Position numbers and translations under genes: made by a program. From an uncultured SAR116 cluster alpha proteobacterium (GTDB lineage Bacteria; Pseudomonadota; Alphaproteobacteria; Puniceispirillales; Puniceispirillaceae), in assembly GCA_902583715.1 (NCBI GenBank), contig CACHXC010000016.1, forward strand, positions 1 to 35,343: a stretch of DNA of 35,343 bases, given 5' to 3'. Of the stretch, positions 2,610 through 34,463 are shown piece after piece; the first letter of the stretch is position 1, and each line of letters opens with the position of its first letter. A model generated the notes under the pieces. The model made no database searches. It worked only from the letters and a program-made list of their open reading frames with translations, and was not told the origin of the DNA.

Positions 2610-3660
2610 ATGGTCGATATCGAAACGGAATTTCTCTTTAATAGCTGGTATGTGGCGGGGTGGAGTTCTGATTTTCAACATGCGCTGAAACCTTTGACCA
2701 TCCTCAATGAGCAGGTGGTTATTTTCCGGACTGACAAGGGCATTCCAGTGGCGCTAGAAGATGCGTGTCCGCACCGTAAATTACCCCTTTCGCACGGCCG
2801 GTTGCATGCGGACAGGGTTGAGTGTGGGTATCACGGCTTGACATTCGATTGCAGCGGCAGTTGTGTGCATGCGCCAACACAACAGGATGCGCCGCCAAAT
2901 GTTAGGGTTAAATCCTATCCCTTGGTTGATCGTTACGGATTGCTTTGGATATGGATGGGCGCACCGGATGCTGCCGAACCAAATGAAATCTATCACATAG
3001 AAAATTTTGATAATCCATCCTGGGGAAAAACACCGGGCGGCAGCATGGATATTGCTTGTCACTATCTTTATATAACCGACAATTTGTTGGATCCGTCACA
3101 TGTTGCGTGGGTGCATGTGTCGTCCTTTGCCGGCGCAGGAACCGAAGATGTGCCTCTCAATATTGACCGGCTTAAAGATGGTATTCTGGTGTCGCGTTGG
3201 ATGCAGGACCGTGAACCGCCACCTTATTACGCGCCAATGCTCTCTTTTACGGGAAATTGTGACCGCAAACAACATTATGAATGTCGGGTGCCGTCAATTG
3301 CCATCAATAAGTCAATATTTACTCCTAAAGGACAGGGGGGGGGACGATACCGCTCTACCAGACAACAGTTTTGTGAATATTTCATACAATTTTATGACGC
3401 CGGTTGACGCGGATAACACTCGTTATTTCTGGTTTCAGCATCGAAATGGTGATCCTGACAATGAGACGCTCTCTACACAGATGTTTGAAGCGGCAAAAAT
3501 CGCTTTTATTGAGGATCGTGACATTCTCGTCAAGGTGCATAAGGGTATGAAGAATAAGCGCACGCGCAATATCAATCTAGGTATTGATGCAGGTCCAATG
3601 CGTTTCCGCAAAATGGTTGAAAAGCGAATCGAGGCTGCGCGGAACACCGTTTCGTTGTAA
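2610..3660 (+). pseudogene. Rieske non-haem iron oxygenase alpha subunit, frameshifted at a G9 run
   Basis: Two overlapping reading frames encode one protein. The first (2610-3407) has the Rieske motif CPH (Cys53, His55) and CGYH (Cys72, His75), then DNLLDPSHVAWVH with iron ligands His163 and His168. At 3335-3343 there are nine G. With eight, translation passes into the second frame (GDDTALPDNSF onward), giving a 349-aa protein with an intact C-terminus ending at 3660. That half includes FIEDRD, expected to hold the third iron ligand. The sequence as given therefore loses the Asp ligand and the end of the catalytic domain. The family is VanA-like (O- or N-demethylases and related monooxygenases), which need a separate reductase not seen here. 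The cause may be sequencing error, phase variation or true decay. Confidence 0.8.
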
Positions 3661-19272: not shown

Positions 19273-20265
19273 CTAAGTTGTTAGAAGTATTTTGCCATGC
19301 TTGTTGGCAGACTCCATTAAGGCGTGAGCTTTACCCGCTTCGGCCAGTGCAAACCTGGCAAAGGTGGTAGCGCGAAGGCGGCTGGCATTTTTGCCAAAGA
19401 GTGGCCAAACCACCGCTTTGAGATCGCTGGCAACATCAGCCTTGAATTGATCCGGACGCGAACGCAACGTTGAACCGGTAAAGCTCAGCCGTTTCAGCAT
19501 TACTGGCATCAGGTCTATTTCAACGCGAGATCCGGCGTTGAACGCCAACTGGATAATGCGGGCATCATGACTGGCAGCCCTAATATTGCGCGCAATATAG
19601 TCACCGCCAATGATATCTAGAATGATATCGGCGCCGCCAGCCTCACGCAAAATACTCACAAAATCCTCATCATTGAAGTTAATTGCCCGGCACGCACCAA
19701 GTGATTCACAATAAGCACAAGACGCCATGTCGCTAGCTGTTGTGTAGACCGACAACCCCATTGCGGCGCCAAGCTGTATCGCTGTTGATCCAATGCCCCC
19801 GGCACCACCATGTACTAGGAAATTGCCGTTTGTTGGTAATTTATGATTGAAAAATACATTACTCCACACGGTAAAATATGTCTCTGGCAGGCCAGCGGCC
19901 TCAATGAGGTTAATTCCATCAGGGATTGGCAGGCAATGTGCGGCGTCGATGGCTACATATTCAGCATATCCTCCACCATTGGTGAGGCCGCAAATTTTGT
20001 CGCCAACAGCCCATAAATTTTGTGCTGCCCCAACCGCGACGACTTCGCCTGAAACCTCCAGCCCAAGGAGGTCAGACGCCCCCTGTGGCGGAGGATAATG
20101 TCCACGCCGTTGCACCAAATCTGGACCGTTTACACCTGCAGCAGCAACTTTTACCAAAATCTCGTGATCCTTCACAACAGGTATTTGGCGCGCGCCAGGC
20201 TGCAATACATCAGGTCCGCCCGGTTCACGCATTTCAATAACCGACATGGAAGAGGGAAAAGACAT
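19273..20265 (-). CDS. NAD(P)H quinone oxidoreductase / zinc-type alcohol dehydrogenase family (PIG3-like)
   Basis: 330 aa from ATG 20265 (MSFPSSMSVIEMREPGG); in-frame codons upstream (TTG 20316, ATG 20298) give an atypical extension. The medium-chain dehydrogenase fold is seen in AAGVNGPDLVQRRGHYPPP, GLEVSGEVVAVG and the NADPH loop LVHGGAGGIGSTAIQLGAA. There are no catalytic-zinc ligands, as expected for quinone oxidoreductases. It reduces quinones or enones with NADPH. Divergent from the formate dehydrogenase genes, with a 245-bp gap that holds the GntR-type palindrome. Confidence 0.9.
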   Translation of the reverse strand: MSFPSSMSVIEMREPGGPDVLQPGARQIPVVKDHEILVKVAAAGVNGPDLVQRRGHYPPPQGASDLLGLEVSGEVVAVGAAQNLWAVGDKICGLTNGGGYAEYVAIDAAHCLPIPDGINLIEAAGLPETYFTVWSNVFFNHKLPTNGNFLVHGGAGGIGSTAIQLGAAMGLSVYTTASDMASCAYCESLGACRAINFNDEDFVSILREAGGADIILDIIGGDYIARNIRAASHDARIIQLAFNAGSRVEIDLMPVMLKRLSFTGSTLRSRPDQFKADVASDLKAVVWPLFGKNASRLRATTFARFALAEAGKAHALMESANKHGKILLTT

Positions 20266-20433
20266 AATATCGCGCTTTCGATTTGCTAAATTTTTCATGA
20301 AATGGTTGATTAGCAATGAGTTTCTTTATCGTCAATCAAAGAGTTTGGTTGATGCGATCTTCGCCAAACATGATTATTTTTGTGCTCGATTGATCGTAAT
20401 TAATCGTTTGCGTCTCTCCGGTGATAGATGCCA

Positions 20434-20451
20434 TCTGGTATACCATATAAT
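20434..20451 (+). promoter_or_regulatory. GntR-type operator overlapping a -10 box of the formate dehydrogenase promoter
   Basis: TCTGGTATACCATAT (20434-20448) contains the perfect palindrome TGGTATACCA (20436-20445). A consensus TATAAT follows at 20446-20451, 60 bp before the GTG start. No good -35 is visible. The 15-mer is the exact reverse complement of 30489-30503 near the gntR-oxc-frc genes. The form TNGTNNACNA is typical of FadR-subgroup GntR regulators; the site position suits repression of formate dehydrogenase. Confidence 0.7.
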
Positions 20452-20510
20452 GTGATTGACGTATGCGGAATTGATTGAGACATTGTAGCGTCATCGTTGG
20501 GAGATAAGAT

Positions 20511-22202
20511 GTGGACACTGGTACAATAGACGCAGGTATTTGGAAATCGGCGCTGGGCAAAGGCCGAAAAACACCAAAAGGCCGACAGGCAAGTGATACT
20601 GCAATTGCCGAGGTGTATGCCTTGCTTGGCAGTCGACCACGTGAGCGTCATCTGCTGATTGAATTTCTTCACCTTATCCAGGATCATTACGGACATCTAT
20701 CAGTTGCTCATATAGCGGCTTTGGCAGAAGAATTGTGCCTCAGCCAAACGGAAGTTTACGAGGTGGCGACATTTTATGCGCATTTTGATGTGGTGCATGA
20801 GGATGAGACACCGCCGCCAGCTTTGACAATTCGGGTGTGTGACTCACTGGCTTGTGAATTGGCTGGTGCGGATGCTTTGCATATGGCGCTCAAAGACGGT
20901 CTTGACCCGTCAGAAGTGCGGGTGTTGCGGGCGCCATGCATGGGCCGCTGTGATACTGCTCCGGTTCTGGAAATTGGTCACAACCATATTGATCATGCCA
21001 CCAAAGACAAGGTCGATGCAGCGATTGCGACTAATGATACACATCCGCATATCACCGATTACGAAACATTAGACGCGTATCGTGCCGATGGCGGGTATGA
21101 TCAGCTGGTGTCGTTTCGCCGTAATGGCGACTGGGAAGCTGTTCAAGAGATGATTAATCAAAGTGGCCTCCGTGGACTTGGTGGTGCTGGCTTTCCATCT
21201 GGAAGAAAATGGGGTTTTGTTCGTGCCGCCGAAGGCCCTCGCTATCTTGCGGTAAATGGTGACGAGGGTGAACCCGGCACCTTTAAAGACCGGTATTATC
21301 TAGAACGCACCCCGCATTTGTTTCTCGAAGGCGTGTTAATTGCGGCATGGGCTGTCGAAGCTGAAAAATGCTTTATCTACATGCGTGATGAATATCCAGT
21401 TGTGCTGGAAATTTTGCGCACAGAAATTGCCAGCCTTGAGGTGGCAGGCTTGATTACCCCAGGATATGTTGATTTACGGCGCGGGGCGGGGGCCTATATT
21501 TGCGGTGAAGAAAGCGCGATGATCGAGTCAATCGAGGGCAAGCGTGGTTTACCGCGGCACAGGCCACCTTATGTCGCGCAGGTTGGCATTTTTGATCAGC
21601 CAACATTGGTTCATAACGTCGAAACCCTACACTGGATCGCCCGAATTTGTCGTGAGGGTCCAGAAATTCTGTCATCTGTCGAAAAAAATGGCCGTCGCGG
21701 GTTGCGTAGTTTTTCCGTATCCGGGCGTGTTGCCAATCCGGGTGTGCATCTTTTGCCTGCTGGGTCAACCATCACCGATATCATTGAGGCGGCTGGCGGT
21801 ATGGCTGACGGGCATATATTTAAAGCCTATCAACCGGGCGGGCCGTCATCTGGTCTTTTGCCGGCTAGTTTGAATGATGTGCCACTGGATTTTGATACGT
21901 TGCAACCACATGGCAGTTTTATTGGATCTGCTGCGGTTGTGGTGTTGTCCGATCAAGATCGGGTACGTGATGCGGCGCTCAATATGCTACGCTTTTTTGA
22001 GGATGAGAGCTGCGGTCAATGCACCCCATGCCGAACTGGCTGTAGTAAAGCTGTGCAATTGATGCAGGAAGATGTGTGGGATCAAACGCTATTGACTGAC
22101 CTGTGTGATGTCATGCAGGACGCATCTATCTGTGGGTTGGGGCAGGCCGCGCCGAACCCCATCCGTTTGACCATGGAACATTTTTCCGACGAAATCAGCT
22201 GA
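20511..22202 (+). CDS. NAD-dependent formate dehydrogenase, fused gamma-beta subunit (FdsG-FdsB; Fdh1B-like)
   Basis: 563 aa, starting at GTG 20511 with GGGAG seven bases upstream. Residues 1 to about 170 are a NuoE/FdsG domain whose [2Fe-2S] ligands are Cys110, Cys115, Cys143 and Cys147. The rest is a NuoF/FdsB domain with GLRGLGGAGFPSGRKW and NGDEGEPGTFKDR for FMN/NADH, and ESCGQCTPCRTGC (Cys501, 504, 507) with a later Cys for a [4Fe-4S] cluster. It passes electrons from the molybdopterin subunit to NAD+. The same fusion is known in the two-subunit FDH1 of Methylobacterium extorquens, a tungsten enzyme; metal use here is unknown. The alpha gene follows after 8 bp. Confidence 0.93.
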   Translation: MDTGTIDAGIWKSALGKGRKTPKGRQASDTAIAEVYALLGSRPRERHLLIEFLHLIQDHYGHLSVAHIAALAEELCLSQTEVYEVATFYAHFDVVHEDETPPPALTIRVCDSLACELAGADALHMALKDGLDPSEVRVLRAPCMGRCDTAPVLEIGHNHIDHATKDKVDAAIATNDTHPHITDYETLDAYRADGGYDQLVSFRRNGDWEAVQEMINQSGLRGLGGAGFPSGRKWGFVRAAEGPRYLAVNGDEGEPGTFKDRYYLERTPHLFLEGVLIAAWAVEAEKCFIYMRDEYPVVLEILRTEIASLEVAGLITPGYVDLRRGAGAYICGEESAMIESIEGKRGLPRHRPPYVAQVGIFDQPTLVHNVETLHWIARICREGPEILSSVEKNGRRGLRSFSVSGRVANPGVHLLPAGSTITDIIEAAGGMADGHIFKAYQPGGPSSGLLPASLNDVPLDFDTLQPHGSFIGSAAVVVLSDQDRVRDAALNMLRFFEDESCGQCTPCRTGCSKAVQLMQEDVWDQTLLTDLCDVMQDASICGLGQAAPNPIRLTMEHFSDEIS

Positions 22203-22210
22203 GGTTCACA

Positions 22211-24994
22211 ATGCTTGATTCAACGCCACAAAAAACTGTTACCTTTGAACTTGATGGTAAAGAAGTCACCGTCAGAGAAGGCACCACTATTTGGGAAGCG
22301 GCACAAGCCGAAGGCCAGCTGATTCCACATTTGTGTCACAAGCCAGAACCGGGCTATCGCTCGGATGGTAATTGCCGGGCCTGTATGGTCGAAATTGAGG
22401 GTGAGCGCGTACTAGCGGCGTCGTGTATTCGTGCCGTTGAGAACGGTATGGTGGTGCGTAGCCAAAGTGAGCGGGCGGTAAAATCACGCGCAATTGTGGT
22501 AGAGCTACTGGCGGCTGACCAGCCTGAAACCGCGCATGATGCCTCGTCGCATTTTTTGGCAATGGCGAAATTGAACAATGTGGAAGACAGCCGCTTTCCG
22601 GCAAAAGACCCGTCTAACGTACCGCTTCTTGATGATAGCCATGTGGCGATGCGGGTAAATCTGGATGCATGTATCCATTGTAACTTATGTGTACGGGCCT
22701 GCCGTGAAGTCCAGGTGAATGACGTGATTGGCATGTCTGGTCGTGGACATGAAGCCCAGATCGTATTTGATATGGATGATCCTATGGGCGCGTCAACTTG
22801 TGTGGCTTGCGGTGAATGTGTACAGGCCTGTCCAACGGGTGCTTTGATGCCGGCAACCGTGCTTGATGATAATCAGTCGGGTGATCGTGCCGATTATGAT
22901 CGCGAAGTCCAGTCAGTTTGCCCGTATTGCGGTGTTGGGTGCCAGCTATCCTTTAAAATTAAGGACAACAAGGTTAAATATGTTGAAGGGGTAAACGGCC
23001 CCGCAAATGAAAACCGTCTGTGCGTGAAAGGCCGGTTTGGCTTTGATTATGTGCATCATGACCACCGCCTAACAGTGCCGTTGATCCGCCGTGATGATGC
23101 CCCAGCCAAGGGATTGAATGTTGACCCGTCAAACCCATACACGCATTTCCGTGAAGCAACATGGGACGAGGCGTTGGATGCCGCGGCAAATGGGATGGCT
23201 GAACATCGTGCCATCGCGGGCACGCGTGTTGCAGGTTTTGGATCTGCAAAATGTTCGAATGAAGAGGCGTATCTGTTCCAAAAGCTGATCCGCCAAGGCT
23301 TTGGTCATAATAATGTCGACCATTGCACAAGATTATGTCACGCCTCGTCAGTGGCGGCGTTATTGGAAAATGTCGGCTCAGGGGCAGTGACAGCGACCTT
23401 CAATGAAATTGAAAATGCCGATGCGGCGATTGTCATTGGGGCTAACCCCACCGAAAACCATCCGGTGGCTGCTACTTATTTCAAACAATTCGCCAAACGC
23501 GGTGGCAAGCTGATCGTGATGGATCCGCGCGGGCATGGGCTTAAGCGGCATGCCACGCATATGTTGCAATTCCGGCCCGGTTCAGACGTGGCGATGCTGA
23601 ACGCCATCATGAATGTGATCGTAGAAGAAAAACTCTATGATCAGCAATACATTGAAGGATTTACCGAAAATTGGGACGCGATGAAGGCGCATCTGAAAGA
23701 TTTTACGCCTGAAAAAATGTCTGAATTTTGTGGTATTGAAGCTGATCGTTTGCGGGCTGTTGCACGTGATTTTGCCACTGCCGAATCAGCCATGATTTTT
23801 TGGGGCATGGGCGTGTCTCAACATATTCACGGCACCGATAACTCCCGGTGCCTGATTTCATTGGCATTGATGTGCGGTCAAGTTGGGCGCCCGGGTACCG
23901 GCCTGCATCCTCTGCGTGGCCAAAACAACGTGCAGGGCGCGTCTGACGCTGGGTTGATCCCGATGTTTTTGCCAGATTATCAGAGCGTGACCGATGAGGG
24001 TGTGCGCTCTGCCTTTAATGAAATCTGGAAATCTGACAATATTCTGGCTGAAAAAGGCCTAACCGTGACCGAAATTATGGATGCGGTTCACGATGGTGAT
24101 ATTTCTGCCATGTATGTTTTGGGTGAAAACCCGGCGATGTCCGACCCAGACGTCAATCACGCCCGCGATGCGTTGGCAAAGCTTGATCATTTGGTTGTGC
24201 AGGATATTTTCCTAACTGAAACAGCTAATTATGCTGATGTGATTTTGCCTGCATCTGCTTGGGCTGAAAAAACTGGCTCGGTCACCAATACGAACCGTCA
24301 GGTCCAGATGGGGCGGCCAGCCTTATCACCGCCCGGTCAGGCCAAGGAAGATTGGTGGATTACTGTAGAACTTGCCAAGCGGCTGGGTCTTGACTGGTCA
24401 TACACGCATCCACGTGAAGTGTTTGCCGAAATGAAACAATCGATGAAGTCGCTGGAGAACATTACTTGGGAGCGTCTGGACTCAGAAAATGTTGTGGCGT
24501 ACCCGTCGCTTGATGAGACAGACCCGGGCCAGCCGATTGTATTTGGTGATGGATTCCCGCGTGCTGATGGACGTGCCCGCTTCACTCCGGCCAGTATAAT
24601 TGCCCCGGCTGAAACGCCGGATGAAGACTACCCGATGGTGTTGACAACCGGCCGCCAGCTTGAGCATTGGCACACTGGGTCTATGACGCGGCGGGCGCAT
24701 GTGCTGGACACGGTCGAGCCGCAGGCTAATGCATCAATACACCCCCAGACCATGCGTAAAATGGGCATCGTTGCGGGTGAAATGATCAATATTGAAACCC
24801 GTCGTGGTTCAATTTCCATCATGGCGCGTGCTGACAAGGCTGTTTCGGTTGATATGGTGTTTGTGCCATTTGCCTATGTTGAGGCCGCCGCTAATATTTT
24901 GACCAACCCGCAAGTTGACCCATATGGCAAAATTCCTGAATTCAAATTTGCTGCATGCCGGATTAGCAAAGTGGGGGCGGTTGCCGCTGAATAG
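22211..24994 (+). CDS. fdhF: Formate dehydrogenase molybdopterin alpha subunit
   Basis: 927 aa, full length. Order of cofactors: [2Fe-2S] (Cys42, 55, 58, 72); two ferredoxin-type [4Fe-4S] (Cys154/157/160/164 and Cys197/200/203/207); a further [4Fe-4S] (Cys237, 240, 244, 271); then the molybdopterin domain. The metal ligand is Cys376 in DHCTRLCHASSV, so this is a cysteine enzyme, not selenocysteine. The C-terminal half holds the dinucleotide-binding region (LTTGRQLEHWHTGSMTRR). It oxidises formate to CO2 in the cytoplasm. GAGG precedes the ATG. No maturation genes (fdsC/fdhD, fdsD) are in the window. A strong terminator follows. Confidence 0.95.
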   Translation: MLDSTPQKTVTFELDGKEVTVREGTTIWEAAQAEGQLIPHLCHKPEPGYRSDGNCRACMVEIEGERVLAASCIRAVENGMVVRSQSERAVKSRAIVVELLAADQPETAHDASSHFLAMAKLNNVEDSRFPAKDPSNVPLLDDSHVAMRVNLDACIHCNLCVRACREVQVNDVIGMSGRGHEAQIVFDMDDPMGASTCVACGECVQACPTGALMPATVLDDNQSGDRADYDREVQSVCPYCGVGCQLSFKIKDNKVKYVEGVNGPANENRLCVKGRFGFDYVHHDHRLTVPLIRRDDAPAKGLNVDPSNPYTHFREATWDEALDAAANGMAEHRAIAGTRVAGFGSAKCSNEEAYLFQKLIRQGFGHNNVDHCTRLCHASSVAALLENVGSGAVTATFNEIENADAAIVIGANPTENHPVAATYFKQFAKRGGKLIVMDPRGHGLKRHATHMLQFRPGSDVAMLNAIMNVIVEEKLYDQQYIEGFTENWDAMKAHLKDFTPEKMSEFCGIEADRLRAVARDFATAESAMIFWGMGVSQHIHGTDNSRCLISLALMCGQVGRPGTGLHPLRGQNNVQGASDAGLIPMFLPDYQSVTDEGVRSAFNEIWKSDNILAEKGLTVTEIMDAVHDGDISAMYVLGENPAMSDPDVNHARDALAKLDHLVVQDIFLTETANYADVILPASAWAEKTGSVTNTNRQVQMGRPALSPPGQAKEDWWITVELAKRLGLDWSYTHPREVFAEMKQSMKSLENITWERLDSENVVAYPSLDETDPGQPIVFGDGFPRADGRARFTPASIIAPAETPDEDYPMVLTTGRQLEHWHTGSMTRRAHVLDTVEPQANASIHPQTMRKMGIVAGEMINIETRRGSISIMARADKAVSVDMVFVPFAYVEAAANILTNPQVDPYGKIPEFKFAACRISKVGAVAAE

Positions 24995-25035
24995 GCGGGG
25001 GCGGTTGTTACCGTTTTGTCAGTCTAACTAACGAT

Positions 25036-25065
25036 AAAAATGGCGCCAGAGATTGCGCCATTTTT
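25036..25065. terminator. Bidirectional intrinsic terminator after formate dehydrogenase
   Basis: AAAAATGGCGC (25036-25046) and GCGCCATTTTT (25055-25065) form a perfect 11-bp stem with an 8-nt loop, between the convergent formate dehydrogenase and ScfR-type genes. Confidence 0.9.
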
Positions 25066-25119
25066 GCTGGCATATTGGCAAGGAACAGAAACGGCGCCAT
25101 TCAGGCTGGTTTTGACTGG

Positions 25120-26565
25120 CTAGTTAATGTCGAGATCGTAAAGCCCAACCCGCCGCATATGGCCGTCAAAGCGCAATTCATGACCAATTGGGGGGTGAGC
25201 ACGTTGGGTGCAGTCCATGCGTTCACACGCCGCACAGCCAATACCGATTAATTCCAACTGTTTTGGTTTGCTGATATCAAGATGGTCAGCATAGATAATG
25301 TCACGGGCATGATGTAATTCACAGCCAAGTGCGACGGCAAATTCGGTCGTCGATTCAAATGTTGTCGACCATAGCGGCGGTACCGTGCGGGCAAGTGTGA
25401 AAAATTTTTGTCCGCCGGGCAATTCAACAGCTTGGGTGAGTATTTTTTCAGGTGTGCGGAATGCCTTATGTACGGCCCATTTCGGGCAGGTGCCGCCATG
25501 TGTGGCAAATTGCATACCGGCGGCGGCCAGCCGTTTGGAGATGTTGCCAGCGTCATCCACGCGCATAAAAAAGAAGGGTATGCCGCGCATATGGGGGGCG
25601 TTTAGCGTTGTTAGCCGGTGGCAAACCTGTTCGAGCGAGGTGTCAAAACGCCGTGCCAGTAAATCAAGGTCATATCGTAAATTTTTGGCTGATTCGAGAA
25701 ACGCATCATATGGCATCATCACGGCCCCGGCAAAATACGCGGCTAAGGTCACTTTAAGCAAAGACACTGTTTGCTGGTCTTCACTGCCAAGTGTCTTACA
25801 AATATCATTTAGCTTGTCCTGCTGGCTAAGCAATGCATATTGCACGAGTAGATGGAATTGGCGTTGTGGCCGACGTAGCGCTTCGCTGAGTAAAATTTCC
25901 CGGCGGTGCTGATCATACCGCCGCAGTTGGTTATGCATCACTTTGACTGGCAACACCCGTACGCGCAGCCCAGCGGTGCTGTTGATGTGATTGGCAATAT
26001 TGGCCAAGGGGTTTTCCATGGCGGCTTTTTCACCGCTATTGCCTTGAAATAAAATGCCGGCTTTTTCGCAGAGGTCTTCGGCCGCCTCCTCAAGAGTCGC
26101 AAAGAAATTATTCTGCGACTGAAGAAAATCACGCACAAATTCAACCGGGCTATTGACCTTGGTTGAGACGCGCCCATCGGCGGATGTGACCTCGATTTCG
26201 TCTCGTACCTTACGATAGGCCTGAAATAAGGTGTGGATCGCCCGGGCCGCACTTGGGGCAGCGGTAATCATATCTTGAATTTCCCGCCGCGGCACGCGTT
26301 CTTCGGCCAGCAAGGGATCAGCAAAAATTTCAGTGATAGAGGTGTTTAATGCGGCTCTGTCATCCTCGGCGAATTCTTTCAGGTCAATATCAAAGCTATT
26401 GCCGAGGCGGAGCAATAGCGCAACGGTGAGGGGGCGTTGATTATGTTCGAGCAGATTTAGATAAGACGGACTGATATCCAGTATTTCAGACATTGCCGTT
26501 TGTGAAAGTTCCATGGATTGGCGTAGCCGCCGTAATTTATGGCCAACTAAAATTTTTTCCTGCAT
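25120..26565 (-). CDS. ScfR/RamB-type XRE family transcriptional regulator
   Basis: 481 aa, the length of short-chain fatty acyl-CoA regulators. Helix-turn-helix at about residues 8-62 (LRRLRQSMELSQTAMSEILD, then ISPSYLNLLEHNQRPLT). The middle region is the IrrE/ImmA-like domain without an HExxH metal site (YFAGAVMMPYDAFL; EQVCHRLTTLNAP). The C-terminal domain ends with the cysteine cluster GIGCAACERMDCTQRAHPP. Relatives (RamB, PrpR, MccR-type) sense acyl-CoA and control acetate, propionate or glyoxylate pathways. It is divergent from the PanE-like reductase, with a striking palindrome between. An acyl-CoA effector such as oxalyl-CoA or formyl-CoA would fit, but that is inference. Confidence 0.9.
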   Translation of the reverse strand: MQEKILVGHKLRRLRQSMELSQTAMSEILDISPSYLNLLEHNQRPLTVALLLRLGNSFDIDLKEFAEDDRAALNTSITEIFADPLLAEERVPRREIQDMITAAPSAARAIHTLFQAYRKVRDEIEVTSADGRVSTKVNSPVEFVRDFLQSQNNFFATLEEAAEDLCEKAGILFQGNSGEKAAMENPLANIANHINSTAGLRVRVLPVKVMHNQLRRYDQHRREILLSEALRRPQRQFHLLVQYALLSQQDKLNDICKTLGSEDQQTVSLLKVTLAAYFAGAVMMPYDAFLESAKNLRYDLDLLARRFDTSLEQVCHRLTTLNAPHMRGIPFFFMRVDDAGNISKRLAAAGMQFATHGGTCPKWAVHKAFRTPEKILTQAVELPGGQKFFTLARTVPPLWSTTFESTTEFAVALGCELHHARDIIYADHLDISKPKQLELIGIGCAACERMDCTQRAHPPIGHELRFDGHMRRVGLYDLDIN

Positions 26566-26651
26566 CTACACCATTCCTAATTACTGGGAGGTGCGGTAAA
26601 ATTTCGCCAATCCCAGCTGTTGTGCTAAAATAATAGGATGGCTGAGCGCTT

Positions 26652-26684
26652 TTGTAAAAAGAAATTGTAAAAAATTTACAATTT
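26652..26684. promoter_or_regulatory. Candidate ScfR operator
   Basis: AAATTGTAAA (26662-26671) and TTTACAATTT (26675-26684) form a perfect 10-bp dyad with a 3-nt centre. A further TTGTAAA half lies at 26652-26658. The dyad is 97 bp before the regulator start and 170 bp before the PanE-like start. RamB-type regulators bind short TTTGCAAA-like sites, to which this is similar. Confidence 0.6.
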
Positions 26685-26854
26685 GCATTTTTTCTCTTTT
26701 TTCCTCGCTTTCACCACTAAATTACAGGAACATTGTCGTCGGAAGTTAGGCTTCGTACACAAGCGGACCATAACTTTGTCTCATATTTTAATGCTGGATG
26801 ATAGGACGTGACGCGCATTTGGGCCGCGTCATCAGATCTTGAGGAGATAACCAT

Positions 26855-27916
26855 ATGAAGATGCTTATTTTAGGTGCATCCTATGGGTCATTATTGTCAA
26901 CGAAACTGCTGATGGCAGGGCATGATGTCACATTAATCTGCCGGTCTGCCTCGGCGGCATTGATCAACAGTGAAGGCACCGAAGTACGGATTAAGCTTCG
27001 TGACGAAGACGAACATCGGGCCATTCGGTCGGCTGATCTACCAGGTACATTAAATGCGGTAACGCCAGAACAGGCGCGCCCCGAAGATTATGATATGATT
27101 GCACTGGCGATGCAGGAGCCACAATATTCTGCCCCGGCTGTGCGTGGGTTGATGACCCGCATTGCGGCAAGCCGTAAGCCATGTTTGTCGATAATGAATA
27201 TGCCGCCATTGCCATTTTTACGGCGTATTGAAACGCTCAAAGATGTGGATCTTGACAGCGCGTATGATGATGCGTCTGTTTGGCGTGATTTTGAACCGGG
27301 CCTGCTGTCTTTGTGTAGCCCGGATCCGCAAGCATTCCGCCCACCAGAAGAGGGCACAAATATTTTGCATGTCGGCCTGCCAACCAATTTCAAAGCGGCA
27401 ATCTTTGCCGATCAAGCGCATACAGAGATGTTGCGCCGCCTGGAAGCCGATATTGCTGCGGTAACGATTGACGGCAAAGATGTGCCGGTAAAATTACGTG
27501 TCTATGACAGCTTGTTTGTGCCAATGGCGAAATGGAGCATGTTATTGACCGGTAATTACCGCTGTGTCGAGGTAGACGGTGTACGCGCCATTCGTGAGGC
27601 AGTCCATGGTGATATTGATGCGTCAACAATGATGTATTCATGGGTTGATGCGCTGGCCCGCCAACTTGGTGCCGACCCAGCAGATCAGGTGCCTTTTGAA
27701 AAATATGCCAATGCGGCAACAGGTTTGTTAAAACCATCTTCAGCAGCGCGGGCGGTTGATTCTGGGGTGGATCGCATTGAGCGGGTTGACCGTTTGGTGC
27801 AGATGATTGGCCGGGGCCTTGGATTGAAAAATCAACAGCTCGACGAAATTGTGGCCATTGTTGATGCGCGTTTGGCGGCAAATGCAAATTTTAAGAAGGT
27901 GGCGAATGTCGGCTAG
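26855..27916 (+). CDS. PanE/ApbA-family reductase, candidate oxalyl-CoA reductase
   Basis: 353 aa, longer than usual ketopantoate reductases. The N-terminal Rossmann motif is MLILGASYGSLLSTKLL with GASYGS in place of GxGxxG; HDVTLICRS follows. A lysine in PMAKWSMLLTGN lies where PanE has its catalytic Lys, but the Asn-rich continuation differs, so the acyl substrate may differ. In Methylobacterium extorquens a PanE homologue (PanE2) was reported as NADPH-dependent oxalyl-CoA reductase giving glyoxylate. Here the gene lies among formate dehydrogenase, oxalyl-CoA decarboxylase and formyl-CoA transferase, making the same role plausible. ATG 26855 has GAGGAG upstream. No other pantothenate genes are present. 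Confidence 0.8.
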   Translation: MKMLILGASYGSLLSTKLLMAGHDVTLICRSASAALINSEGTEVRIKLRDEDEHRAIRSADLPGTLNAVTPEQARPEDYDMIALAMQEPQYSAPAVRGLMTRIAASRKPCLSIMNMPPLPFLRRIETLKDVDLDSAYDDASVWRDFEPGLLSLCSPDPQAFRPPEEGTNILHVGLPTNFKAAIFADQAHTEMLRRLEADIAAVTIDGKDVPVKLRVYDSLFVPMAKWSMLLTGNYRCVEVDGVRAIREAVHGDIDASTMMYSWVDALARQLGADPADQVPFEKYANAATGLLKPSSAARAVDSGVDRIERVDRLVQMIGRGLGLKNQQLDEIVAIVDARLAANANFKKVANVG

Positions 27917-27994
27917 CTGTTGATAAAGGGAAGACAATAGGTGCTTTATCCAACACGTTTGCAGTCAATAATAGCGTAAAACCGGAATCTGAAT

Positions 27995-28029
27995 AAAAAA
28001 ACGGCGGTAAGTGATCACCGCCGTTTTTT
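27995..28029. terminator. Bidirectional intrinsic terminator between reductase and sucD
   Basis: Stem ACGGCGGT (28001-28008) with ACCGCCGT (28017-28024), loop AAGTGATC, flanked by A-run and T-run. Serves both convergent genes. Confidence 0.9.
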
Positions 28030-28046
28030 GTCGGAGGAGAGTTTAC

Positions 28047-28949
28047 TCAGGTGTTGAGCAGAGACACCAATGTGTCGCCAAGTTTGGCAGGTGATGGTGA
28101 TACCCGTACACCCGCGGCTTCGAGTGCAGCGATCTTATCATCTGCACCACCCTTGCCACCTGAAATGACTGCACCAGCATGGCCCATTGTGCGCCCTGGT
28201 GGTGATGTCCGCCCGGCAATAAATCCAACAGTTGGCTTTGTTCGGCCTTTCTTGGCCTCATCAATTAGGAACTGCGCTGCGTCTTCTTCTGCTGACCCAC
28301 CAATTTCACCAATCATAATGATGGCTTCAGTCGCCTCATCCGCCAAAAACAGTTCCAAGACATCGATAAATTCGGTGCCCTTTACCGGGTCGCCGCCAAT
28401 ACCGACAGCAGAGCTTTGACCAAGCCCAGCTATGGATGTCTGGTAAACAGCTTCGTAGGTCAAAGTGCCTGAGCGTGACAGAACGCCAACTGACCCTTTT
28501 CTGAAAATACTAGCTGGCATGATGCCAATTTTACATTCATTTGGCGTCATTAGCCCCGGGCAGTTGGGCCCGATAAGACGTGAATTTGATGCATTCAGCT
28601 TTTCTTTGACGCGCACCATGTCAAGTACCGGCACACCTTCGGTGATACAGGTGATCAACTTGATACCTGCATCGATCGCTTCTTCAATGGCCGCCGCCGC
28701 ACCAGCAGGCGGCACGTAGATCACTGACGCATTGGCGCCGGTGGCGTCTTTTGCTTCTGCGACCGAGCTAAAGAGTGGCACGGTCTGGCCAGTTGAACTG
28801 GTCCAATGCTGGCCGCCTTTTTTCGGGTGTGTGCCAGCAACCATTTGGGTGCCGTGATAGGCTAATGCTTGTTCAGTATGAAAGGTACCAGTTTTGCCGG
28901 TCAGCCCTTGCGTAATAATTTTGGTATCCTTGTTAATCAAAATAGACAT
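28047..28949 (-). CDS. sucD: Succinyl-CoA synthetase alpha subunit
   Basis: 300 aa. N-terminal CoA-binding Rossmann domain ([20 protein letters not shown]), then [17 protein letters not shown] and the phosphohistidine loop ending [16 protein letters not shown] with the active His (GHAGA). It makes succinyl-CoA from succinate, CoA and NTP, or the reverse for energy. 4 bp after sucC. Its location beside oxalate genes instead of sucAB/mdh is notable; it might supply succinyl-CoA to prime the CoA-transferase step. Confidence 0.93.
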
Positions 28950-28953
28950 GGGC

Positions 28954-30147
28954 TTAACCTCTCACGGCTTTGACAATTTTTTGTGCCGCGTCATCAAGGT
29001 CATCGGCAGTGATAACATTCAAGCCACTCTCATTGATGATGGCCTTTCCTTCTTCCACTTTGGTGCCTTCAAGACGCACAACTAACGGCACATTGAGGCT
29101 GATATCAGCCGCGGCCTGCACAACGCCGGTTGCAATCACGTCGCACCGCATGATGCCACCAAAAATATTCACCAAAATGCCTTTTACATTTGGATCAGCA
29201 GTGATGATTTTAAATGCTGCTGTCACGCGTTCGGTTGTGGCACTGCCGCCAACATCAAGGAAGTTGGCGGGTTCAGCGCCATATAGTTTGATGATGTCCA
29301 TGGTGGCCATGGCAAGTCCAGCCCCATTCACCATACAGCCGATTTCACCATCAAGTGCGATATAGGCAAGGTCATGTTTGGACGCTTCGACTTCTTTCTC
29401 GTCTTCTTCAGTTTCGTCACGCAATTCCATTATATCGGGGTGACGGAACAAGGCGTTGCCATCAAATGACAACTTGGCATCAAGTACCTGAACATTGTTC
29501 GATTTGGTGATGATCAGCGGGTTGATTTCAAGTAAGCTCATGTCTTTGGCAACAAAGGCGTTATATAGGTTTTTAAACAGCGCCATCCCTTGGATGCGCG
29601 CTTTGCCATCAAGCTTTAAGGCATCGGCAAGCTTTTCAGCATCGCCATCTGTGCAGCCAGCGCTGGCAGTTATGCCAACAGAATGGATCAATTCTGGCGT
29701 TTCATGTGCAACCGTTTCGATATCCATGCCACCTTCGGTAGAGGCCACAAAAGATGTCTTGCCAGTCTCACGGTCAACCAAAATTGACAAGTATAATTCA
29801 CGGTCAATATCGGCGCCATCTTCCACATAAATCCGGTTCACAGCTTTGCCTGAAGAGCCGGTTTGCTGGGTGACTAGTGTCTTACCGAACATTTCACGGA
29901 TATTCTCCAGCGCGTCTTCCGCTGAAAAAGATACCCGCACACCACCTTTGGCATCAGCTGGAAGCTCTTTAAATTTACCTTTACCGCGTCCACCGGCGTG
30001 GATTTGACTTTTCACAACCCAGACTGGGCCAGGTAACGAAGCGACAGCTGCTTCGGCCTGATCAAGGGCGGTTATTGCAGCACCTTTTGCGATCGGCGCA
30101 CCAAATTCTCTCAGAACTTTTTTGGCCTGATGCTCATGAATATTCAT
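28954..30147 (-). CDS. sucC: Succinyl-CoA synthetase beta subunit
   Basis: 397 aa with the ATP-grasp domain: [39 protein letters not shown], and [17 protein letters not shown]. The C-terminal half has [18 protein letters not shown] and [13 protein letters not shown]. The sequence is of ordinary alphaproteobacterial SucC type and not malate-CoA ligase MtkA, which differs around the KAQIHSGARGKA-type region. Binds nucleotide and forms the alpha-beta complex in the TCA cycle. About 500 bp separates it from gntR; that gap holds the regulatory palindromes. Confidence 0.93.
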
Positions 30148-30488
30148 GGTTATTCTGTTCCTCTCTGTTCATTTATCCTGGCGCCATCAAGGCGGCACCC
30201 CATATATCACATCCGGGGCGGGCTATGCCCTTATTGATAACCCCCAATTTTTCCTGACTGATGCCAAGAGAAGGTGGCGCAACTTTCGTTGTGACATAAA
30301 TTTTATCTCGAATCCATTTCGGTTGCCTTGTCATGCATCCATGTGTGTTGATGACTGGTCGTCGGGTTTGCTCATCAAATCTGTGTTAAACCCAACCGAA
30401 TTCACGCGCGTTTCTATTTTGGAAAATTCCCTTAAAATCATGATTTTATTGCATTTGTATTCTGTTTTACCATAGAATTTTGAAAAAG

Positions 30489-30503
30489 ATATGGTATACC
30501 AGA
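30489..30503. promoter_or_regulatory. GntR-type operator between sucC and gntR
   Basis: ATATGGTATACCAGA, with perfect palindrome TGGTATACCA at 30492-30501. It is the exact reverse complement of the site before formate dehydrogenase. Read toward sucC, its layout (palindrome then CATAT) matches that promoter, with a possible -10 (TATCTT). It lies 341 bp upstream of sucC and 152 bp upstream of gntR. The rest of the 507-bp gap (30148-30654) holds no gene I can support. Confidence 0.7.
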
Positions 30504-30550
30504 GACCAAGTTATGCAACCTGTAATCACATAAATTGTTATGAGTTTGTC

Positions 30551-30584
30551 TTGACGGTTTAGGTGCTAGGTGTATTGTATACCA
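30551..30584 (+). promoter_or_regulatory. Probable gntR-oxc-frc promoter with a second GntR-type site
   Basis: TTGACG at 30551-30556 and TATTGT at 30573-30578 are spaced 16 bp. TTGTATACCA (30575-30584), a variant of the palindrome, overlaps the -10 and start region, a position suiting repression (autoregulation) by the adjacent GntR protein. Confidence 0.55.
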
Positions 30585-30654
30585 CACAAACGAGGCTTGC
30601 AAATCATAGCATGCAAGTCACGGTATAGATGGTGTTAGTCGGCAGGGGGAGCAT

Positions 30655-31407
30655 ATGTCGTTAAATGTTAAATTAAAGCCAGTTGCGATAAACTTCACCC
30701 TCAAAGACCATATTTATGAAGTGTTACGTGAAACCATCCTCGACATTGATATTTATGATGCTGAGGCGGATATGCGGTTAGATGAACGACAACTCGCTGA
30801 ACAGCTTGGCATTTCGCGCACACCTATCCGTGAAGCACTTGCGCGACTTGCCCAAGATGGGCTGGTCGAAATCGTACCGCGCAAGGGCGTGTTTATCCAT
30901 CGCAAGTCACTCAGTGAAATTCTCGATATGGTTGTCACATGGGCGGCGTTGGAGAGTATGGCGGCGCATATTGCAACGCGTGACGCTAGTGATGCCGACC
31001 TTCAGGCATTGCGTAATTTTGCCATGCGTAACAGCGTTTCGGCAACCAAAGCAGAACTCGGTGAATATTCTGATGCGAACATCAAATTTCATCAGATGAT
31101 TCTCGAATTGTCGGGCAGTGAGTTATTGCGTTCAACAGCAGATGGGCTGTTGATGCACATGCATGCCGTGCGGCGGAGAGCAATGGGGGAGAGCGATCGG
31201 GCCTCGCGTTCTGTTGCAGATCACATGGAAATTATCGAGGCACTCGAAGCACGTGATGCTGAGTTGGCATCGCGTCTTGTGCGTGAGCATACGATGCGCC
31301 TTCATGACCATATCGAAGACCGTTGGACGCGGTTGAGTAATTTGGACAAAACAAAGCGCCCTGAGGTTCAGGCTGCTGCCAAAAAAATCAAGATTAAGGA
31401 GAAATAG
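30655..31407 (+). CDS. GntR-family (FCD subgroup) transcriptional regulator
   Basis: 250 aa. The winged helix-turn-helix lies at about 42-82 ([20 protein letters not shown], then [16 protein letters not shown]), followed by an all-helical FCD effector domain. FCD proteins bind organic acids through metal-coordinating His/Asp residues ([37 protein letters not shown]). ATG 30655 follows GGGGGAG with short spacing. The stop lies one base before the oxc ATG, so gntR-oxc-frc is one operon. It is the natural candidate to bind the TGGTATACCA sites here and before formate dehydrogenase; the effector may be oxalate, oxalyl-CoA or formate (inference). Confidence 0.92.
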
Positions 31408-31408
31408 A

Positions 31409-33148
31409 ATGTCATCGATGAATGTGGCAGAGACCCATAGCGAGGCAGAGTCCCAAGCTCTAACAGATGGCTTCCATTTGGTTATTGACGCTTTGAAGCT
31501 GAATGATATTAATACAATCTATGGCGTTCCAGGCATCCCCATTACCGATCTTGGCCGACTGGCACAAGTTGAAGGCATGCGGGTTATTTCATTCCGCCAT
31601 GAACAGCATGCTGGCAATGCGGCGTCGATTGCTGGCTATTTAACGCAAAAGCCAGGTATATGCTTGACCGTATCGGCCCCTGGCTTTCTCAATGGGCTAA
31701 CCGCGCTGGCTAATGCCACAACAAACTGTTTTCCGATGATCCTGATCAGCGGTTCGTCAGAGCGTGAAATTGTTGATTTGCAGCAGGGCGATTATGAGGA
31801 AATGGACCAATTGGCCATTGCCAAGCCATTGTGTAAAGCAGCGTTTCGCGTATTGCACGCTGAAGATATCGGTATTGGTGTTGCCCGTGCTATTCGGGCC
31901 GCTGTATCTGGTCGTCCCGGTGGAGTTTACCTTGACCTGCCTGCCAAGTTGTTTGCCCAAACCATGGACTCTGTTGCGGGTCAAAATTCTTTGGTAAAAG
32001 TTGTTGATGCGGCACCGCGGCAATTGCCAGCACCCGAATCAATCACCCGCGCACTCAATGTGTTGAAATCAGCCAAAAAGCCATTGATCATCCTTGGTAA
32101 GGGGGCGGCTTATGCACAGGTTGACCAAACCATCAAGGATTTTGTTGAAAAATCTGGCGTGCCTTACCTGCCGATGAGCATGGCAAAAGGACTGTTGCCT
32201 GATGACCATCCACAATCTGCAGGGGCCGCACGCTCGCTGGTTTTGAAAGAAGCCGATGTGGTGATGTTGATTGGTGCGCGTCTCAATTGGTTGTTGTCGC
32301 ATGGTAAAGGCAAGACATGGGGTGAACCCGGTGCCAAGAAATTCATTCAGGTCGATATCGAACCACGCGAAATGGACAGCAATGTCTGGATTGCCGCGCC
32401 AGTTGTTGGTGATATTGGCTCAAGCCTGTTAGAAATGAACAAGGCCATGGGTGACAAATGGGCCAAGCCACCGGTTGATTGGACCAATGCCATTCAGGAA
32501 CGCAAAGATGTGAATCTGGCGAAAATGGCATCAAAATTGATGAATAATCAGGTGCCGATGGATTTCCATAGTGCGCTTGGTGCCTTGCGTACCATCGTTA
32601 AACAACGGCCGGATACGATCTTGGTCAATGAGGGTGCAAATACACTCGATTTTGCCCGCAGTATCATTGATGTCTACAAGCCGCGCAAACGTCTCGATGT
32701 GGGCACATGGGGCATTATGGGTATCGGCATGGGCGCCGCAATTGCCGCCGCTGTTGAGACTGGCGAGCGAGTGCTTGCAGTAGAAGGTGACAGCGCCTTT
32801 GGGTTCTCTGGTATGGAGATTGAAACAATCTGCCGTTACAACCTGCCGGTCTGTATCGTCGTGTTTAACAATAACGGCATTTATCGCGGTACCGACGTCA
32901 ACCCAGCTGGTGGGGCCGATGTGGCACCAACCGTGTTTGTAAAAGACTCGCGCTATGACTTGATGATGCAGGCTTTTAGCGGAGTTGGCGCCTATGTCAC
33001 ATCAGCTGATGAACTGACACAAGCGGTGAATGAGGCACTGGATTCAGGTAAGCCAACTCTGGTGAACGCCATAATTGATGAAAATGCTGGTACGGAAAGT
33101 GGCCGTATCGGCAACCTCAACCCGCAGAGTGTGGTGACCAAAAAATAA
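31409..33148 (+). CDS. oxc: Oxalyl-CoA decarboxylase
   Basis: 579 aa thiamine-diphosphate enzyme that turns oxalyl-CoA into formyl-CoA and CO2. Nearly collinear with known Oxc: [20 protein letters not shown] at the N-terminus; catalytic Glu65 in [45 protein letters not shown]; and the TPP motif [14 protein letters not shown] through [14 protein letters not shown] lies in the end of gntR, 8 bases before the ATG. Followed by frc after 43 bp. Confidence 0.96.
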
Positions 33149-33191
33149 TCAATCGTCGGCAAACTAAATCGCCAAAATGTAGGATATGACA

Positions 33192-34463
33192 ATGAAAGCT
33201 CTTGAAGGTATTAAAGTTCTGGATTTTACCCATGTGCAATCAGGCCCGACCTGTACACAATTGCTGGCATGGTTTGGTGCAGACGTAATTAAAGTAGAAC
33301 GCCCTGGTGTTGGTGATGCGACCCGCAAACAGCTTGTCGATGTGCCGGGGGCCGACAGCTTGTATTTCACCATGCTGAACCACAATAAACGGTCAATTGA
33401 ACTCAATTCGAAAAATGAGACTGGTAAGGCGGTTCTGACCCGTCTGATTGAAACCTGTGACGTGCTGGTGGAAAATTTTGCCCCTGGCGCGCTTGATCGC
33501 ATGGGGTTCACTTGGGAACGGATTCAGGAAATCAACCCGCGCATTATTATGGCGTCTATCAAAGGCTTTGGTCCGGGTAAATATCAGGACTGTAAAGTGT
33601 ATGAAAATGTGGCGCAATGTGCCGGTGGCTCTGCCTCTACAACCGGGTTTCGCGACGGGCCACCGCTTGTTACCGGTGCGCAAATCGGCGATTCTGGAAC
33701 CGGCTTGCATCTGTGTCTTGGTATCGTAACGGCCTTGTTTCATCGTGAAAAGACCGGCAAAGGCCAGAAAGTAAGCGCGGCCATGCAGGATTCTGTGTTG
33801 AATCTGGCGCGTGTTAAATTGCGTGACCAACAACGCCTTGCCGCTGGTCCGCTGGCTGAATATTCACAATATGGTGAAGGCATTCCCTTTGGTGATGCGA
33901 CCCCGCGTGCTGGCAATGATTCAGGTGGTGGACAGCCGGGCCGTATTTTGCGTTGTAAAGGCTATGAACAAGATCAGAACGCCTATACTTATTTCATCAT
34001 TCAGGCGGCCATCTGGGAACGGGTCTGTGATGTGATTGGCGAGCCTGATTGGAAGACCAAGGATGGTTATGCCAAGCCAGCAGACCGGCTTAATAAGCTT
34101 AACGAAATTTTTGAGCGTATCGAGCAATGGACAATGACCAAAACCAAATTTGAGGTGATGGATGTCTGTAACCCGCTTGATATTCCGGTCGGGCCAATCC
34201 TGTCGATGAAAGAAATCGCAGAGGATGAGGGGCTATATGCTACCGGCACGTTGGTGAAAGTCGATCACCCGGAACGTGGCGAGTATATTTCGGTCGGATG
34301 CCCGATTAAGCTATCTGCCAGCCCAGCTGAAGTCACGCGCTCGCCATTGCTTGGTGAACATACCGCTGAAATTCTGTCAGAGGTGCTTGGCTATTCGGCT
34401 GATGAGATGAATGAAATCATCGCGTCAGGTGCCGTTGGTGAGGTAAAAGCGGCGGCTGAATAG
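33192..34463 (+). CDS. frc: Formyl-CoA:oxalate CoA-transferase
   Basis: 423 aa from ATG 33192 (AGGA seven bases upstream; an ATG six bases earlier is also possible). Class III CoA-transferase: [30 protein letters not shown], and [10 protein letters not shown] with the nucleophilic Asp167 (169 from the upstream ATG, equal to Asp169 of the Oxalobacter enzyme). Transfers CoA from formyl-CoA to oxalate, making formate and oxalyl-CoA for the preceding decarboxylase. Length fits the family. Followed 48 bp later by the formyltransferase gene. Confidence 0.95.

Follow-up and report, generated by a model that had tools for sequence, protein, structure and literature searches.

Regulators of the GntR family that belong to the FadR (FCD) subfamily include the Escherichia coli repressors NanR and FadR, the former using GGTATA units and the latter binding a palindrome symmetrically (available part of PMC8012715). 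A protein of the same build, with a GntR winged helix and an FCD domain, is encoded by gntR (30655..31407, + strand) in a stretch of 35,343 nucleotides from an uncultured SAR116 alphaproteobacterium (contig CACHXC010000016.1), here referred to as the window. Here we describe a short inverted repeat, TGGTATACCA, that recurs upstream of gntR and of genes for oxalate, formate and succinyl-CoA metabolism and is predicted to be the operator of this protein. Unlike NanR, for which the operator has three tandem GGTATA repeats, each site here contains a single short inverted repeat, GGTATACC, and the NanR arrangement was not found. The predicted targets also differ from those of both NanR and FadR, being the oxalate, formate and succinyl-CoA genes.

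A parallel in function is GlcR of Paracoccus denitrificans, the repressor of glycolate oxidase, which is likewise an alphaproteobacterial GntR-family protein concerned with the oxidation of a C2 acid (available part of PMC11323563). The target genes differ, and the comparison covers family and described function. The enzymes formyl-CoA transferase (FCOCT) and oxalyl-CoA decarboxylase (OXC) are also encoded by frc and oxc in the E. coli yfdXWUVE unit, which is under EvgA; unlike the window cluster, this unit contained no GntR, sucCD or fdh gene in the accessible text of PMC3720670. In Cupriavidus necator, with ApbA2, and in Methylobacterium extorquens, the decarboxylation of oxalyl-CoA to formate is combined with an ApbA/PanE-like reduction to glyoxylate, and the word GntR is absent from the main text, as far as available, of the paper describing them (PMC7486775). 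We found no GntR regulator of oxalate genes described in the part of the literature that was available for searching.

Candidate operators of the GntR protein

Based on the comparisons below, we consider it highly probable that the FCD-type GntR protein has its operators at the three sites of TGGTATACCA type; it would repress gntR-oxc-frc until an oxalate-derived ligand is present and would also bind before sucCD and fdhBA. A preliminary description of the window had reported a 15-bp identity in inverted orientation between a site before the formate dehydrogenase genes and one between sucC and gntR. Both are present: the 15-mer TCTGGTATACCATAT is located at 20434..20448 (+; O-fdh), 75 bp upstream of fdhB and 129 bp upstream of the divergent pig3 gene, and its perfect reverse complement at 30489..30503 (-; O-suc), a site that is kept in relatives. 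The palindromic core TGGTATACCA, with no internal mismatch, occupies 20436-20445 and 30492-30501. The variant site said to lie at the gntR-oxc-frc promoter was recovered as a third core with one mismatch, TTGTATACCA, at 30575..30584 (+; O-gnt), which is 83 bp from O-suc and overlaps the gntR -10 element; relatives have AGGTATACCA or TGGTATACCA in its place.

When the window was scanned with the 15-mer at up to 3 mismatches, 6 matches were obtained against 0.58 expected, a number reached by 0/100 shuffles; two of the six are the same palindromes read on the opposite strand, leaving four distinct places. The core at up to 1 mismatch gave 4 matches against 0.73 expected, with 1/100 shuffles reaching 4, and one of these matches (5087) is inside coding DNA. 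For scfR, panE and eight other genes of the window, the 400 bp upstream contained no operator with 0-1 mismatch. The window's own assembly, G000 (1.49 Mb, 60% complete), contains the exact 10-mer three times, the third copy being in a coding sequence on another contig, and a reversed-pattern control only once.

The window protein exceeds the cut-offs for the N-terminal winged helix-turn-helix domain of the GntR family (PF00392, 59.7 bits against 27) and for the C-terminal FCD domain of the subfamily (PF07729, 79.0 bits against 24.3). Residues D140, H146, H190 and H212 are invariant across 18 orthologues and align with D, H, H and H of 3sxy; they are candidates for the one Asp and three His residues that form the metal site of FCD domains, metal binding being putative. 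The orthologues are 57-94% identical to the window GntR, while matches in the PDB are distant. Using a profile built from the 18 orthologues, we obtained 60 named loci from SAR116, Rhodobacteraceae, Aurantimonas, Rhizobiaceae, Geminicoccaceae, Kiloniellaceae and strain BAL199, of which 58 were usable after removal of L113, with 40 bp of upstream sequence, and L167, with a truncated start.

All 58 usable loci contain TGGTATACCA with 0-1 mismatch within 400 bp upstream of gntR, 51 of them exactly and 7 with one mismatch, and thus have an inverted-repeat operator with GT...AC half-sites near the regulator's own gene, as for the FCD family. The corresponding frequencies were 17/1817 for control 400-bp windows from the same loci, some of which contain the other operators, and 9/1160 for shuffled gntR-upstream stretches. 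Loci with a divergent sucC usually have two sites, spaced by 83-85 bp in the window's genus and embedded in poorly conserved DNA. An oxc locus without an orthologous gntR (G142) contained one one-mismatch word.

Downstream of gntR, oxc (31409..33148, +; TIGR03254, 1000.8 bits, cut-off 739.4) and frc (33186..34463, +; TIGR03253, 690.3 bits, cut-off 504.2) both exceed the curated family cut-offs, as is characteristic of the oxalyl-CoA decarboxylase/formyl-CoA transferase pathway. OXC was above its cut-off in 25 of the 151 genomes searched, the window's genome included, and the cluster is mostly syntenic among the OXC genomes whose surroundings were read.

Sites at fdhBA and sucCD

The formate dehydrogenase of the window consists of a NuoE/NuoF-like fused subunit, fdhB (20511..22202, +; Pfam/NCBIfam scans), and the alpha subunit, fdhA (22211..24994, +; TIGR01591, 752.9 bits, cut-off 666.25). 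For the comparison of upstream regions, we used 51 fdhB regions, of which 42 were scored and 9 were fragments scanned whole, the fdhB start being unaligned. Dropped from the table were G129 (55 bp) and three genomes in which the contig stops short of the expected gntR position: G001 and G012, with exact sites, and G013, with a degenerate site. An exact site precedes fdhB in 14/17 gntR-bearing SAR116 genomes versus 0/30 gntR-less fdhB regions (Fisher p = 2e-9, kinship ignored). If one-mismatch words are counted, the comparison is 14/17 versus 2/30 (p = 2e-7, kinship again ignored), and with G001, G012 and G013 put in the gntR-less class it is 14/17 versus 2/33 (p = 7e-8).

The fate of the sites where gntR is lost is of particular interest. 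Genome G010 (99% complete) has kept oxc, frc, sucCD and fdhBA, and its gntR survives between sucC and oxc only as two decayed fragments that differ in reading frame and contain one and two stops (L042 13858-14314). No site with 0-1 mismatch was found in the G010 sucC-oxc interval or before fdhB, and its three exact words lie away from the cluster promoters. Likewise, G067, which has no gntR orthologue and in which the cluster-type sucC is near fdhB and far from oxc, has zero exact sites in its assembly. In G078 the oxalate cluster lacks fdhBA, and a divergent fdhB (57% identical) on a separate contig is preceded, at a distance of 44 bp from its start, by an exact operator; the G078 assembly has just one further exact site, at sucC-gntR. 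The sibling genome G070 (99% complete), with no gntR orthologue and no OXC above the cut-off, has zero exact sites genome-wide. Since the operators persist with gntR and mostly vanish without it, one local regulator is probably in charge and probably runs the route from oxalate to CO2. The coordination of oxalate decarboxylation and formate oxidation by GntR, as proposed in the preliminary description, is thereby supported on comparative genomic grounds.

The same description had added sucCD (sucD, 28047..28949, -, NF004230 and TIGR01019 above cut-off; sucC, 28954..30147, -) as perhaps co-regulated, a link for which the support is now about equal to that for fdh. At L125, L126 and L128, three loci of related Rhodobacteraceae, sucCD has the opposite orientation and its upstream region is separate from that of gntR. 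An exact operator is nevertheless present about 75 bp before sucCD, arranged as TTGAC...GTATGGTATACCA like the one at the gntR promoter. This argues that sucCD is a target in its own right.

The cluster-type sucC (in the window at 28954-30147) is the sole TIGR01016 match (E 1e-30) in the ten oxc-bearing SAR116 genomes searched (L173-L214), including the incomplete G000. Within these ten, sucA is present in 7/7 tested genomes that were at least 92% complete, and was not found in G000. Two relatives without a true oxc, G016 and G020, have a different SucC gene that adjoins sucA. Among 16 further genomes examined via the named loci, both kinds of sucC, in one copy each, are present in G151, G153 and G166; G154 and G155 have the cluster type only, and the remainder have none to three, partly classified. 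In an unrooted tree of 34 SucC rows, for which the program warned of long branches elsewhere in the tree, the cluster SucC proteins group with two Rhizobiales SucC proteins at a support of 100/100; the oxalate loci of those two Rhizobiales genomes have no sucC.

We consider the chances about even that a sucCD pair of separate ancestry, belonging to the oxalate island, has displaced the housekeeping sucCD in oxalate-using SAR116 and a marine Rhodobacteraceae group, that the only succinyl-CoA synthetase of the tricarboxylic acid (TCA) cycle would thus be under the oxalate regulator, and that SucCD also feeds oxalate activation, with succinyl-CoA as CoA donor or by charging oxalate. A role of succinyl-CoA as CoA donor could be the reason for including sucCD in the regulon. 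Speaking against this reason, neither YfdE nor UctC formed a product when given succinyl-CoA and oxalate (PMC3720670, available part).

The exact operator is also located upstream of tctC, a tripartite transporter gene, in G001 and G002 (L056 390-3764; L053 8002-9173), and in G001 this gene heads a tctCBA set adjoining fdh. The operator-bearing transporter is a possible oxalate importer. As a constant target it was rejected, for no site with 0-1 mismatch was present upstream of ten further tctC homologues (47-50% identical) from the same genus, in a comparison where the number of available upstream bases varied and was 1 base only for one homologue. No tctC match was obtained in G000, G012, G013 and G015. 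The gene was identified by Pfam, and NCBIfam at E 1e-10 gave no match. In G004, frc is followed by a formyltransferase-like gene (under cut-off), a formate-tetrahydrofolate ligase gene and another tctCBA set.

Promoter layout and competing explanations

The predicted promoter of gntR-oxc-frc consists of a -35 TTGACG (30551..30556, +), conserved as TTGAC[GC] in 20/20 aligned gntR upstream regions, and a -10 TATTGT (30573..30578, +) after a 16-bp spacer. The position of O-gnt over the predicted -10 is an autorepression layout. We suggest that a GntR dimer would bind the inverted repeat TGGT-AT-ACCA and, with O-gnt overlapping its own -10, would keep gntR-oxc-frc repressed until a ligand, which we infer to be oxalate, oxalyl-CoA or formyl-CoA, releases it. 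The protein would also sit before sucCD and fdhBA, so that oxalate activation and decarboxylation, formate oxidation and succinyl-CoA supply would respond together. The best reading is thus a dedicated oxalate regulon of oxc-frc, sucCD, fdhBA and sometimes a transporter, with GntR as the putative repressor.

The geometry at the fdh promoter is ambiguous. As had been noted, a TATAAT (20446..20451, +) abuts O-fdh and is a candidate fdh -10; of the 19 fdhB sites listed, 14 adjoin [A/T/G]ATAAT and 2 adjoin AATATT. An alternative candidate -35, TTGACG (20456..20461, +), is located downstream of O-fdh.

The concentration of the sites was high. Both of the exact genomic sites in each of G009 and G061 are in the cluster, as are 2/3 in G004, where the third is at the start of an integrase gene, while 3/5 in G002 are at the cluster. 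For 16 same-genus genomes taken together, 22/36 exact sites are at fdhB (11), sucC-gntR (9) or tctC (2). Of the remaining 14, 12 fall within open frames or at their starts, integrase-type genes among them, and 2, both from G010, are outside frames of at least 70 amino acids in a context resembling integrase 5' ends. In 11 sister-family genomes, 14/21 exact sites are at cluster or fdh promoters (one of these sites being counted twice because two contig ends overlap); of the others, six fall within open frames and one, in G084, is intergenic. Many stray copies, which the preliminary description had named as evidence that would speak against its proposal, were thus not seen, and a wide regulon was rejected because exact sites are mostly within the cluster. 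As a separate observation, several genomes (L057, L059, L065 and L069) have integrase-type genes (DUF6538 and/or Phage_integrase) whose 5' end consists of TGGTATACCA, which is suggestive of a coincidence in the coding sequence of a mobile element.

Several observations weigh against the proposed regulon. Most of the 30 gntR-less regions are distant fdhB homologues, two of them (G136 and G072) carry a one-mismatch word at fdhB, and with close fdhB genes only, where the gntR-less class is G010, G014 and G067, the comparison is reduced to 13/16 versus 0/3 (p = 0.02). G014, without a gntR orthologue, retains a one-mismatch site between sucC and oxc, its fdh site having three mismatches. G011 keeps gntR and has a degenerate fdh site, and its fdhB contains three in-frame TGA codons. 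In G064 and G073 fdhB is preceded only by the two-mismatch word TGGTATACAT, and no 0-1 mismatch site was found before fdhB in the four non-SAR116 loci spanning this gene (L126, L128, L158 and L164). Loss of the sites in relatives keeping the genes had been named as a test: loss was seen in G010, G014 and G067, where gntR is gone, but also in G011, where gntR is kept and the decayed fdh site is beside a damaged fdhB; G064 and G073 have only the two-mismatch fdh site, and the four non-SAR116 fdhB genes have none. An exact intergenic word in G084 (L270 771-780) stands directly before an unrelated gene for a small exported protein to which no function was assigned. A consensus scan around O-fdh yielded no matching -35 and no sigma-70 promoter, and tight repression of the sole sucCD found would be odd for a cell with a TCA cycle. 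In G011 (L043), fdhA and sucC were also matched in part only, possibly indicative of an assembly error or of decay.

The lack of a matching -35 at O-fdh and the sole sucCD would be easier to accommodate if GntR were a dual regulator that represses itself and activates fdh and perhaps sucCD. The TATAAT in the window abuts O-fdh without a fitting -35, and a TTGACG is present about 20 bp past O-fdh beside the exact same-genus operators and in G061; if it is a real -35, O-fdh would be upstream of the fdh promoter and activation there is possible. A sole sucCD would also fit modulation more easily than tight repression. However, the downstream TTGACG is absent in G064, G073, G076 and G082, the -10 that would partner it is weak as judged by eye, and a TATAAT-like run abuts the sucC-side operator too in several genomes. 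We therefore treat dual regulation as a possible but rather doubtful alternative.

It is very unlikely that the operators belong to another GntR paralogue with the same motif and that the linkage to gntR is incidental. GGTATA units do serve another GntR regulator, NanR (PMC8012715, available part), and the genomes contain further candidate GntR-like proteins according to first-look counts. Against this, the sites accompany the cluster gntR in every usable locus, have disappeared from the cluster promoters in G010, whose gntR is broken, and have no exact copy in G067 and G070. We give next to no credence to a chance match or a non-regulatory repeat as the source of the two identical intergenic 15-mers. 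The preliminary description had judged chance improbable; word count alone would allow two chance copies, exact 10-mers occur in coding DNA too and the reversed-pattern control has 0 to 3 copies per genome, but the position and conservation of the sites exceed chance. Chance is contradicted by the conservation across relatives, where the site is kept in register amid diverged intergenic DNA, with few copies elsewhere.

Gene neighbourhood and implications

In Pfam and NCBIfam scans, the gene order at 19273-34463 was a PIG3-type oxidoreductase gene, fdhBA, a ScfR/RamB-like regulator gene, a PanE/ApbA-like gene, sucD, sucC, gntR, oxc and frc. The ScfR/RamB-like regulator (25120..26565, -) was recognized by PF09856. 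The PanE/ApbA-like protein (26855..27916, +) is a candidate oxalyl-CoA reductase based on synteny and on a PF02558 score of 21.4 bits, which just missed the cut-off of 22.2. It is thus a weak ApbA match, unlike ApbA2 of C. necator; the M. extorquens enzyme is named PanE2. Elsewhere in the window, a VanA-type Rieske oxygenase gene is broken over the overlapping frames 2610-3407 and 3100-3660, the second of which continues the domain, indicating a frameshift or a sequencing error.

Taken as a prediction from comparative data, the cluster offers a concrete regulon for the use of oxalate by marine SAR116 bacteria and other Alphaproteobacteria that can be put to the test, and its targets can be predicted from the operator, the single word TGGTATACCA. 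The tripartite transporter emerges as a possible importer of oxalate, and one enzyme of the TCA cycle would be encoded solely beside catabolic genes.

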